From Candidatus Pullilachnospira intestinigallinarum (GTDB lineage Bacteria > Bacillota > Clostridia > Lachnospirales > Lachnospiraceae): 64,000 bases of DNA. Location of the stretch: contig DVIN01000003.1 in the NCBI GenBank assembly GCA_018711275.1, positions 1-64,000 on the forward strand, in the 5' to 3' direction. Below the pieces are notes generated by a model. It did no database searches and had not been told where the DNA came from. It saw only the letters and a list, made by a program, of their open reading frames with translations. Positions 4,758 through 9,285 of the stretch are shown one piece after another (position 1 is the first letter of the stretch; the number at the start of each line of letters is the position of its first letter). The position numbers were made by a program, and so were the translations under genes.

Positions 4758-6034
4758 TCAGGACTGCAGCAGTTCGGTCTCCAGATCCTGAAGCATGATA
4801 TCCAGGGCCTGGATTCCTCCCTCTGCCGTATACCACACAGCCGGATGTGCCAGGTAGATCAGATGGCCGTTTTTGTAGGCATCCGTTCCCTGAACCAGTT
4901 CATTTTCCATGATATCCTGAGCCAGCTGGGCACCCTCTGTGGCAATGGCTGCATCCCGGTCCAGCACAAAGATATAGTCCGGATTTTTCTCTGTCACAAA
5001 TTCAAAAGAGGCTTCATTTCCATGGGTGGAGGTATCCGCATCCGCATCAACGCCGATATTCTCAAATCCGATCTCCCTTCCGATCAGAGAGCAGCGGCCG
5101 TCATTTCCCAGCACATTGAAGCTTCCGCTGGTACACATTCCGATAATGGCAGTCTTTCCCTCAGCAAACGCCGACAGCGTCTGGATTCTTTCGTCAAAAT
5201 CACTCATCAGAGTATCCACCTGATCTTCTTTTCCAAAAATGGAAGCGATGGTCTGGGCATTTTCCGCACACTCTCCACGACACCTGCCTCGGTATCCGTG
5301 GAAAGGTAAATCACCGGCGCAATATCATTCAGGCTGTCGTAGGACGCGGACAGTCTTCCTCCGATGAAGATCACATCCGGTTCGCAGGCCATTATCACCG
5401 ATTCCAGGTGATGTTCCATGGAAAAATAATCTCTGGCGCCGCGGATAAACTCCAGCTGGGAAAGCAGGGAAAAATCAATGCTTTCTCTTTCGTAAAGCGG
5501 ATGATTTTTCCCTGCGTACACACACAGCTTTCTGTTATCCAGCGGTTCAAAGTCCAGTTTTTTATGGCCCAGAATGTGGTGAAAAGCGGTCAGCTGTTTC
5601 TTGGCGATAAATACAAGGCCCAGCTGTGCCGCACCGGTTTTCACATGATCCGTAATCTCCTCCGCCGTACCTTCCAGATGTTCAATGACATATTTTTTCT
5701 CCATCTGATTATAAAAATCGACGAGAAAACGGGAAATCAAAATGCTGGGCCAGGTGGAGACGGAAAGTTTCTCTCCCGGGTTGGCGGGAGCAATATTGCT
5801 GATCATCAGCACATTTCTCAGAATATCCCTGGCATAGTCCCGGACCGTTTCTCCGAACGGCGTCAGTTGGATGCCTTTGCTGGTTCTCTCGAAAAGCTTT
5901 TTTCCCAGTTCCTTCTCCAGCCCCGAGATCACTTTGCTCACATTAGGCTGAGAAGTATACAGACACTCTGCGGCTTTATTGAAGCTCTCGCACTCACTGG
6001 CAGTGACAAAATATTCCAGCTGCTTAATCTCCAT
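4758..6034 (-). pseudogene. Chimeric pseudogene: LysR-family regulator N-terminal part joined to C-terminal half of a siderophore ABC substrate-binding protein (FatB/YclQ-like), with a frameshift
   Basis: Frame A (6034..5207): MEIKQLEYFVTASECESFNKAAECLYTSQPNVSKVISGLE (LysR HTH) to about ...MEHHLESV, then IMACEPDVIFIGGRLSASYDSLNDIAPVIYLSTDTEAGVVESVRK (SBP). The SBP continues in another frame as NAQTIASIFGKEDQVDTLMSDFDERIQTLSAFAEGKTAIIG...LDIMLQDLETELLQS. Confidence 0.8.
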
Positions 6035-6132
6035 GAATGTCCTCCTTTTTAGTTTGTTTAGACTAACTATAAAGAAATCCATTCCTCCTGTCAAGTTTTT
6101 CCGGCCTGGGCTCTCCGGCGCTCTGCAGCAGC

Positions 6133-9100
6133 CTACTGTACCTTCTGATACAGCTGCAGCGTTTCCCGGCTGCTGCCTCCGAAAAAGAAATAATAATCAA
6201 TCTGCCCGCTTCCTTCCGTGTACACATACGGGCCATACATGGGGATATCGCAGCACATAACGGTATTTCCCGCGGCAATACCGATTCCATATCCCAGTTC
6301 GGAAACCACCAGAGGCATCCGCAGTTTCTTTCCCCCGAAACTGATATACCGGGCCTTCTGATCCACCCGTTCCAGATCCTGTGCCAGCAGGCCTTTCGCC
6401 CAGAGTTTCTCTTTCTTCCCCCAGTCAAAGTATGTCCAGGTCTGACCGGCCGGTGCTTCCTCCACCTGGCGGGGCAATGCGGCTTTCTCTGCCAGAAGAA
6501 GCCGCCCTCCTTTTTCAAGAAACTGTACCGCCCCGGTTTTCTTATCAACTCTTACGGTCAGTTTCTCCGTGGCAATCTCCACCAGGCTTTTGTTTTCTCT
6601 GGCGCTCCAGACCAAAGCAGCCGGCGGCTGATAATTCCAGAAGCCTTCCGCAAAAGGCGTCAGTCTGCCTTTCACAAACTGTACCCGAATCACATCGTCC
6701 TCTGCCGGTGAAATGCGAAGTGTTCCATAACTGCTGATCAGCTCCACATGTTGTTTCGTTCTGCGCACCATACGGACGGAATTGTCAATACGTCCGTGCC
6801 CCCTGGGCCGAAGCACACTGCTGTCCGGAGCGGTTCCGAATTTCCAGCGGGAGGGATTCACAGGCATCTCCCGGTCCGGGTGCTCTTTTCCGGTTTCCTG
6901 TATTTTTTCTGAAACTTCTGCTGATTTTCCTTCTTTCTCTCCCTTTTTTATGAGATCTCCCGATGGATCCCTGCCATGCATTCCCACTTTTTCTGTTTTC
7001 TTTTCTTTCGGAGAGGAAACCACAAGGGGCTTTGGCCCCAGATAGTCCCGCATGGCCCGCTCTTTATTTCCCTGCAGCACATCCCGGGCCATCTGCTCCT
7101 TGTCCGTGAGTTCCCGTTTTGTTTCAAACCGGAAGGGTTTTTTCGCCCTGCCTTCCAGAGAACCCATTCTCTTTTCTTCGGGTACCGGCTTCGCGATCAG
7201 ATCCGTCAGATCTCCCCGGTGAACCACCGCCAGTTCATGGAGCGCCCGGGTGGCAGCCACATAGAGCAGCTTCACATAGCCATCCTCGCAGGGATAGTGT
7301 TCCCCGGAGGGATGATAGATCAGCACCGCGTCAAATTCCAGTCCTTTGGTATACTCCACCGGAAGCACCATGATGCCGCTACCAAATTCGGCAGTCTCCA
7401 GATTGCTGTCTGCCAGCGGCAGATACTTCCCCAGGTTTTCGCTGACCGTGGCGGCCTCCTCCTGATCCCGGCAGATCACAGCGATGGTCTCCCTCTCTTC
7501 CTGCTGCCATCCCCGGATAATCTCCGCCGACTGGCGCAGCATATCCTCTTCATCTGCGCACTCCCGGATCACCACCGGATTCCCATGGCGGCTGATGGGT
7601 TCCACCGGATAAATGGAAAAATTCCCATGCCGCAGGATCTCTGTGGCAAAATCAGAGATTTCCACCGTATTCCGGTAACTTTTTTTCAGCAGTTCAAAGC
7701 TGTCGAAGGTTCCCGTCAGAATCAGATCCTGCAGTTCCTTCCAGTCGTTGAGGCCGTATCCGAAATGGATATTCTGGGAAACATCTCCCATGATGGTATA
7801 GGTACAGCCCCGCAGGCAGTAAGCCAGCGCTCCATAAGCCATCATACCGAAATCCTGGGCCTCGTCAATGATCACATGGCTGGCCTCCCGGATCCCGTCC
7901 GTCTCTTTGATCCGCTTATACAGAAAAGCCAGCGCCGCCAGATCATAGACATCGAAACAATCTTCCTCAAAGGGGACGCTTTTTTCGTTCCTTTTCTGCT
8001 CCTTTAAAAATTCGCCATACAGCCGGAAAACCGATCCCTTCCAGGCATTTCCTCCGAAATGCTGCCGGCAGGCCTTCTGAAGCTCCTTTTTCTCCTCCGG
8101 CGTACAGGAAATATATTTTCCGGACAGTTCATTTTCCAGTTTCGCCAGAAGCCGTGCATTGAGCATATTGATTTTGCTCTGCATGGACATCCGGGGATAT
8201 TCCTCCAGATACTGCCGGATGGATGCTGCGGACAACAGCAGCGCTCCTGTTTTCTTCAGGCGGATGTCCTTTGCCGGGATCTGCTGCCGCTCATAGGCGT
8301 TGCAGAATTCCTCCAGATCATGGAACCAGGAAAGACTGCCCTTCCGGCAAATCCGCGGATCCTTCCGGTCCGCCGGACGGATCCGATACTTTTCCCTGTC
8401 CCAGTCCTCATAAAGCAGGCGCACAAACAGTTCTTCCATAGTCATCTGGGAAACGCCGTATACATCCAGCTCCGGCAGCACGCCGGTGATGTAATTCAGC
8501 AGAATCCGGTTGCTGCCGATAATATAAAAATCCTCCGGGCGGAATTCCTCATAATTGTACAGAATATAGGAAATCCGGTGCATGGCCACGGTGGTCTTTC
8601 CGGATCCCGCCACCCCCTGAACAATCAGATTCGTCTTCGGGGATTTTCGGATAATGGCATTCTGCTCCTTCTGAATGGTGGCAATGATTTCCCCCAGCAC
8701 TGCTTTCTTATTTCTGGCCAGATATTTATTCAGCAGCTCATCGTTGGCCACCACATCGGAATCGTAAAAATCTTTCAGTTTGTCATTCTCGATTTCATAG
8801 GTGCGCTTCCGCTTCAGATCAATCGCAAAGGTACCCTCATTTTTCACGGTGTATCTGCAGGGGCCCAGGGAATTTTCGTAATACACGGAGGCCACGGGAG
8901 CCCGCCAGTCGATCACCAGGGGTTCCCGCCCATTTTGAGAAATCCCCACCCTTCCCACATAATAGGACTCCTCCTGGCGGATCCTGCCATCCAGGAAATC
9001 AATTCTTCCAAAGTACGGTTTCTTTCTGGCTTTCCGGCACCGGATCAGATCCCGCTGATTTTCCCGCATCTGCGACTGGGTATTAAAAAGCAGCGCCAGA

Positions 9101-9285
9101 GCTTCCTTATCCTTTGGGCCGTAGGTTTCCATCAGATCGTGCAGTTCCTCCGTAAGCTCCCTGCTCCGTCCGGCAGTCCGCTCCAGATTTTCCTGCGCCA
9201 CAGCGATAATCCTGGCCAGCTGCTCTTCCTCATCCTTCCTGGATAATCCCGGAATGGGCCGGGGGGTTTTCATCACATTTTCCAT
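6133..9285 (-). CDS. HelD-like UvrD/Rep-superfamily helicase fused to a GH31 N-terminal-like beta-sandwich domain
   Basis: 1050 aa; VQGVAGSGKTTVAMHRISYILYN Walker A, IIDEAQDFG Walker B, LLYVAATRALHELAVVHRG; charged linker; C-terminus resembles the GH31 N-domain (IRVQFVKG...PLVVSELGYGIGI...DYYFFFGGSSRETLQLYQKV). Confidence 0.82.
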   Translation of the reverse strand: MENVMKTPRPIPGLSRKDEEEQLARIIAVAQENLERTAGRSRELTEELHDLMETYGPKDKEALALLFNTQSQMRENQRDLIRCRKARKKPYFGRIDFLDGRIRQEESYYVGRVGISQNGREPLVIDWRAPVASVYYENSLGPCRYTVKNEGTFAIDLKRKRTYEIENDKLKDFYDSDVVANDELLNKYLARNKKAVLGEIIATIQKEQNAIIRKSPKTNLIVQGVAGSGKTTVAMHRISYILYNYEEFRPEDFYIIGSNRILLNYITGVLPELDVYGVSQMTMEELFVRLLYEDWDREKYRIRPADRKDPRICRKGSLSWFHDLEEFCNAYERQQIPAKDIRLKKTGALLLSAASIRQYLEEYPRMSMQSKINMLNARLLAKLENELSGKYISCTPEEKKELQKACRQHFGGNAWKGSVFRLYGEFLKEQKRNEKSVPFEEDCFDVYDLAALAFLYKRIKETDGIREASHVIIDEAQDFGMMAYGALAYCLRGCTYTIMGDVSQNIHFGYGLNDWKELQDLILTGTFDSFELLKKSYRNTVEISDFATEILRHGNFSIYPVEPISRHGNPVVIRECADEEDMLRQSAEIIRGWQQEERETIAVICRDQEEAATVSENLGKYLPLADSNLETAEFGSGIMVLPVEYTKGLEFDAVLIYHPSGEHYPCEDGYVKLLYVAATRALHELAVVHRGDLTDLIAKPVPEEKRMGSLEGRAKKPFRFETKRELTDKEQMARDVLQGNKERAMRDYLGPKPLVVSSPKEKKTEKVGMHGRDPSGDLIKKGEKEGKSAEVSEKIQETGKEHPDREMPVNPSRWKFGTAPDSSVLRPRGHGRIDNSVRMVRRTKQHVELISSYGTLRISPAEDDVIRVQFVKGRLTPFAEGFWNYQPPAALVWSARENKSLVEIATEKLTVRVDKKTGAVQFLEKGGRLLLAEKAALPRQVEEAPAGQTWTYFDWGKKEKLWAKGLLAQDLERVDQKARYISFGGKKLRMPLVVSELGYGIGIAAGNTVMCCDIPMYGPYVYTEGSGQIDYYFFFGGSSRETLQLYQKVQ

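Follow-up and report, generated by a model that had tools for sequence, protein, structure and literature searches.

The window (the whole stretch of 64,000 nucleotides that was analysed) carries at positions 6133–9285, on the minus strand, a gene whose single open frame joins a HelD-type helicase, a Lys/Glu-rich linker, and a GH31-type β-sandwich, and ends before the catalytic barrel. Both the coordinates and this layout had been given in a preliminary description made from the letters of the DNA; the coordinates proved correct, and the layout was confirmed by profile searches and by the predicted fold. The features of the gene are as follows (aa, residues of the encoded protein).

6133–9285, minus strand: HelD–GH31N fusion gene; single open frame, 1050 aa plus stop
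7174–9285, minus strand: HelD-type SF1 ATPase/helicase part, aa 1–704 (NCBIfam HelD_BACSU, E 5e-107; Foldseek 6wvk_H, E 2.7e-39)
9022–9240, minus strand: predicted N-terminal antiparallel coiled coil, aa 16–88, counterpart of the secondary-channel arm of HelD (AlphaFold helices 16–54 and 60–88; 6wvk_H alignment; conservation)
8590–8616, minus strand: Walker A motif GVAGSGKTT, aa 224–232, invariant except for V225 in 44 fused homologs
7855–7866, minus strand: motif II (Walker B) DEAQ, aa 474–477, invariant in 44 of 44
7237–7272, minus strand: motif VI KLLYVAATRALH, aa 672–683, with R680 invariant
6847–7173, minus strand: disordered K/E-rich linker, aa 705–813 (pLDDT mostly <50; dN/dS 0.26)
6136–6846, minus strand: GH31 N-terminal-type β-sandwich, aa 814–1050 (pLDDT 91.1; pTM 0.91; fold and profile matches; dN/dS 0.083)
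6319–6399, minus strand: remodelled GH31 loop region, aa 963–989 (domain positions 150–176), GLGQ.EEG...LRG...Y.HQAN.KI in GH31 proteins of the family and AKGLLAQDLERVDQKARYISFGGKKLR in the fusion protein

Among 65 homologs, the linker is 51–170 residues long (median, 100) and contains 12% Lys and 12% Glu. In all 65 homologs measured, the protein terminates 2–17 residues past the GH31 N-terminal (GH31-N) domain, and the catalytic barrel is absent.

The HelD-type motor and its relatives

The window protein was matched by the NCBIfam model HelD_BACSU with 358.7 bits (E 5e-107), missing the equivalog cut-off of 419 bits. Bacillus subtilis HelD ranks first in the PDB sequence search and also in the Foldseek search with the full-length model (6wvk_H, E 2.7e-39; 6zca_H, E 7.2e-37); the alignment extends over 789 columns, with modest TM-scores (0.43 for the query and 0.56–0.57 for the target) because the placement of the domains in the full-length model is loose. 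The core residues of Walker A, DEAQ, GDxSQ, SYRNT, KGLEF, and TRALH are retained in nearly all of the 44 fused homologs. In the coiled coil, the acidic stretch EELHD aligns with DDAHE of B. subtilis HelD (Glu46, Glu47, and Asp50 with Asp56, Asp57, and Glu60, respectively, in the 6wvk_H alignment), and this region near the tip is mostly acidic across the fused homologs; in B. subtilis HelD, the acidic tip is reported to repel the transcript inside the active site of RNA polymerase (RNAP) (PMC7749167). The fused protein is thus like the class I HelD of B. subtilis (6wvk, 6zca) in its acidic N-terminal coiled coil, its SF1 motifs, and its fold along the whole length, but differs in the added C-terminal linker and GH31-N domain and in missing the HelD_BACSU cut-off. 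It is, by homology, a HelD-type motor yet no HelD_BACSU equivalog, and the latter label was withheld because the equivalog cut-off was missed; for the same reason, homology alone argues for RNAP recycling by the fused protein. Judging from this homology, the helicase part probably shares its mode of action with HelD, including the release of RNAP from nucleic acid.

The nearest relatives of the motor belong to an unfused sister HelD clade in the same bacterial family (L133–L137; up to 58% identity), whose members stop right after the helicase part and have no C-terminal domain. One genome with such a sister protein (G382, locus L136) contains the fused gene, the unfused paralog, and a third HelD. 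The window genome also encodes a second, unfused HelD of 691 residues (G000, contig C84, 26883–28913), which is about 31% identical and passes the HelD_BACSU cut-off. About 19 of the 31 fusion-bearing genomes with a match, some of them incomplete, yielded no HelD-like protein besides the fused one.

Ancestry and remodelling of the C-terminal domain

The preliminary description had likened the C-terminal region to the β-sandwich preceding the GH31 barrel and had named PF13802 as a check. On the single protein this check fell short: PF13802 matches the full window protein at E 0.037 and the domain alone at E 0.005 (17.5 bits), below its gathering score of 27. Among relatives the likeness stood, since PF13802 matches 26 of the 54 fused family members at E ≤0.01 (best, 1.4e-5), and a profile built from the 54 relatives reaches the GH31 α-xylosidases 7kmp and 5jou at E 2e-12 in an hmmsearch against the PDB. 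The same profile also picks up GH31 genes within the bacterial family, the best-scoring of which (in genome G342) has α-xylosidases as its nearest known structures. The isolated domain was predicted by AlphaFold2 as a galactose-mutarotase-like β-sandwich (mean pLDDT, 91.1; pTM, 0.91), and all 50 of the PDB fold matches listed for this model are GH31 enzymes, so that the proposed GH31-N similarity is upheld by the predicted structure as well. As judged from profiles and the predicted fold, the homology of the C-terminal domain to the GH31 N-domain is secure.

With the α-xylosidase-like GH31 proteins (7kmp; 5jou, BoGH31A; 2xvg; and the dextranase 6jr6), the fused protein shares the N-terminal β-sandwich and a recognisable sequence core, whereas it has neither the catalytic barrel, nor the C-terminal domains, nor the YGLGQ...HQAN motif of GH31 glycosidases. 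The C-terminal domain is non-catalytic, and the fused protein is no GH31 enzyme. The loss of the motif can be followed residue by residue: all eight N-domains sampled from GH31 proteins of the family hold Gly150, Gln153, Glu155, Gly157, Arg162, and Asn172 (domain numbering), whereas the fused proteins mostly have other residues at these positions while retaining the structural core. These residues belong to the stretch YGLGQ..EG...LRG...HQAN, which is conserved in the sampled GH31 proteins of the family and lost from the fused domains. By our reading, this stretch leads into the GH31 N-loop and adjoins the active site; in GH31 enzymes, most of the sugar pocket is supplied by the barrel and a part of it by the N-loop (PMC4742823).

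The charge of the domain has also shifted. Among the fused domains the median pI is 9.17 (n = 54), a basic value, whereas the N-domains of GH31 glycosidases in the family are acidic (median pI, 5.32; n = 28); because the 54 basic domains descend from one ancestor, they do not count as independent evidence in a rank test of pI, and a single charge shift, with no necessary implication of nucleic-acid binding, is possible. Many Lys/Arg columns are retained in >80% of the rows of the fused-domain alignment; the conserved columns include Arg29, Lys31, Arg83, Lys86, Lys102, Lys103, Arg126, Lys144, Lys151, and Arg166 (domain numbering).

Distribution and origin of the fusion

An ortholog from a genome of the same genus is 87% identical across residues 1–1050, and a scan of GTDB species genomes identified the identical architecture at 66 loci on named contigs, in all of which the helicase lies in the same open frame, except one that is cut by the contig edge (L091). 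The fusion is present in about 32 of the 397 sampled genomes of the Lachnospiraceae, a recurrence that exceeds chance by far, and is therefore not unique to this assembly; carriers include Candidatus Pullilachnospira, Blautia (Blautia sp. An81), Mediterraneibacter (M. catenae), Lacrimispora, Fusicatenibacter, and Eubacterium plexicaudatum. None of 398 further genomes from the phylum gave a fusion at E up to 1e-20. In a sample of 295 genomes of the order, long fused frames occurred only in the same family, and the sole match outside it was a frame of GH31 length (800 residues).

In the tree of the helicase part, the fused proteins form one clade (support, 99/96), and 98% of the bootstrap trees require one change. 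When the family was searched with the helicase part only, no protein of the fused clade clearly lacked the domain; one is split by a frame change, and others are cut by contig ends. In the split case (G173, locus L132, 3779–6887), a HelD frame of 750 residues overlaps a GH31-N frame of 323 residues, probably owing to an indel in the linker or to a sequencing error. When the window protein is compared with its ortholog from the same genus, the domain (dN/dS 0.083) proves to be as constrained as the motor (0.085), whereas the linker has a dN/dS of 0.257. The fusion arose once and has been kept across many genera under purifying selection. This single origin, the retention across many genera, and the strong purifying selection refute, as far as a local accident is meant, the suggestion of an accidental fusion with a lost glycosidase. 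Spread by plasmids or other mobile elements was considered and rejected: the eight plasmid matches are all partial and <60% identical, and seven of the eight coincide with genes whose annotation is GH31 or TIM-barrel protein.

Possible roles of the tethered domain

We propose that the fused protein is a HelD-type motor with a once-exapted, α-xylosidase-like GH31-N domain that most likely serves as a basic grip for nucleic acid or RNAP, a reading to which we assign a probability of about 0.5. Since its link to sugar cutting is lost and its charge has become positive, the domain has probably been put to a new use, gripping DNA, RNA, or the polymerase from the end of its tether. In the proposed mechanism, the motor, powered by ATP binding and hydrolysis, would pull stalled RNAP off DNA as HelD proteins do, with the N-terminal coiled coil entering the secondary channel and the clamp-arm region opening the primary channel. 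The linker-tethered domain would hold either an acidic surface of RNAP or nucleic acid, whether DNA or RNA, that lies at the stalled complex or is on its way out of it. Such a grip would raise the local affinity and may therefore assist recruitment, release, or retention. We infer both this binding role and the recycling of RNAP by the fused protein.

The tethered domain may act much as the C-terminal Tudor domain does in PcrA/UvrD. PcrA contacts RNAP via a C-terminal domain tethered by a long stretch of disordered linker, and the two systems are alike in having an SF1 motor, a long disordered linker, and a folded C-terminal domain (PMC8318588). The C-terminal folds differ, being Tudor in PcrA/UvrD and a GH31-N β-sandwich here, with no fold match between them among the matches listed. 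That a glycosidase accessory domain was turned into an arm gripping nucleic acid or RNAP, and that the resulting hybrid is the only HelD found in many gut Lachnospiraceae, is put forward tentatively as a combined statement.

The domain could instead be an adaptor for a protein partner or an intramolecular regulator, docking on the HelD core or on another protein, such as one of DNA repair or replication, and making no contact with nucleic acid. A folded domain under strong constraint at the end of a long disordered linker is what such a role would also use, and the C-terminal domain of PcrA binds UvrB as well as RNAP (PMC8318588). On the other hand, the domain is not confidently placed overall in the full-length model (pTM, 0.54), although the alignment behind this model was shallow. 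We regard the adaptor or regulator role as a credible possibility, though not a probable one.

The preliminary description had also raised a carbohydrate-sensing function, in which the domain would bind a sugar or related metabolite and couple carbon status to RNAP recycling. The GH31 ancestry of the domain agrees with this idea, as does the fact that the carriers are carbohydrate-fermenting gut bacteria. The barrel, however, which is the main pocket-former in GH31 (PMC4742823), is absent, the conserved loop motif has been lost, and the domain has turned basic. Furthermore, no carbohydrate gene or any other gene recurs near the fusion beyond local synteny in 57 loci, where the commonest neighbour families reach 11 of 57. 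The claim thus found no positive support, and a sensing role appears unlikely.

It is more doubtful still that the domain stands in for the δ subunit of RNAP. In B. subtilis, δ acts together with HelD, and its C-terminal region is acidic (PMC7749167); no δ (TIGR04567) was found above the family cut-off in 18 genomes of the Lachnospiraceae, the window genome included, although HelD is present. Because δ is missing both with and without the fusion, as in relatives with unfused HelD, its absence does not discriminate, and the fused domain is basic where the C-terminal region of δ is acidic. Replacement of δ was rejected as an explanation of the fusion and is considered very improbable.

An assembly or deletion artefact, or a non-functional accidental fusion, might be suspected from the fragmented window genome (84 contigs; 81% complete) and from the chimeric look of the next gene downstream, but is practically negligible in view of the 87% identical ortholog in the same genus, the recurrence on 66 contigs from many genomes including named strains, the single clade, and the purifying selection on the domain.

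Taken as a basic grip on a HelD-type motor, the C-terminal domain offers a clean case of a structural domain of an enzyme that was stripped of its sugar-cutting context, entered what is probably the transcription machinery in a single event, and has since persisted in many gut genera. In bacteria that are abundant in the gut, it would add a testable new component to the mechanism of HelD, and the GH31-like matches would mislead annotation of the fused gene. A description of the HelD–GH31N architecture was not found in the open-access literature searched; the main text of a HelD survey (PMC8655204) does not contain the words "C-terminal", "fusion", or "extension".

With regard to the surroundings of the gene, operon-based guilt by association was rejected as a guide to function, a conserved neighbourhood being absent. 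The downstream gene (4758–6094, minus strand) looks chimeric: a LysR regulator, with an HTH and a partial substrate domain, continues into a periplasmic binding protein (Peripla_BP_2), the frame changing near 5260. Residues 229–282 of its product match frames of other genomes at 63–65% identity, and the earlier residues match LysR. None of the matches in 20 relatives spans the LysR/Peripla_BP_2 junction, and the chimera is likely to be a deletion or a misassembly.
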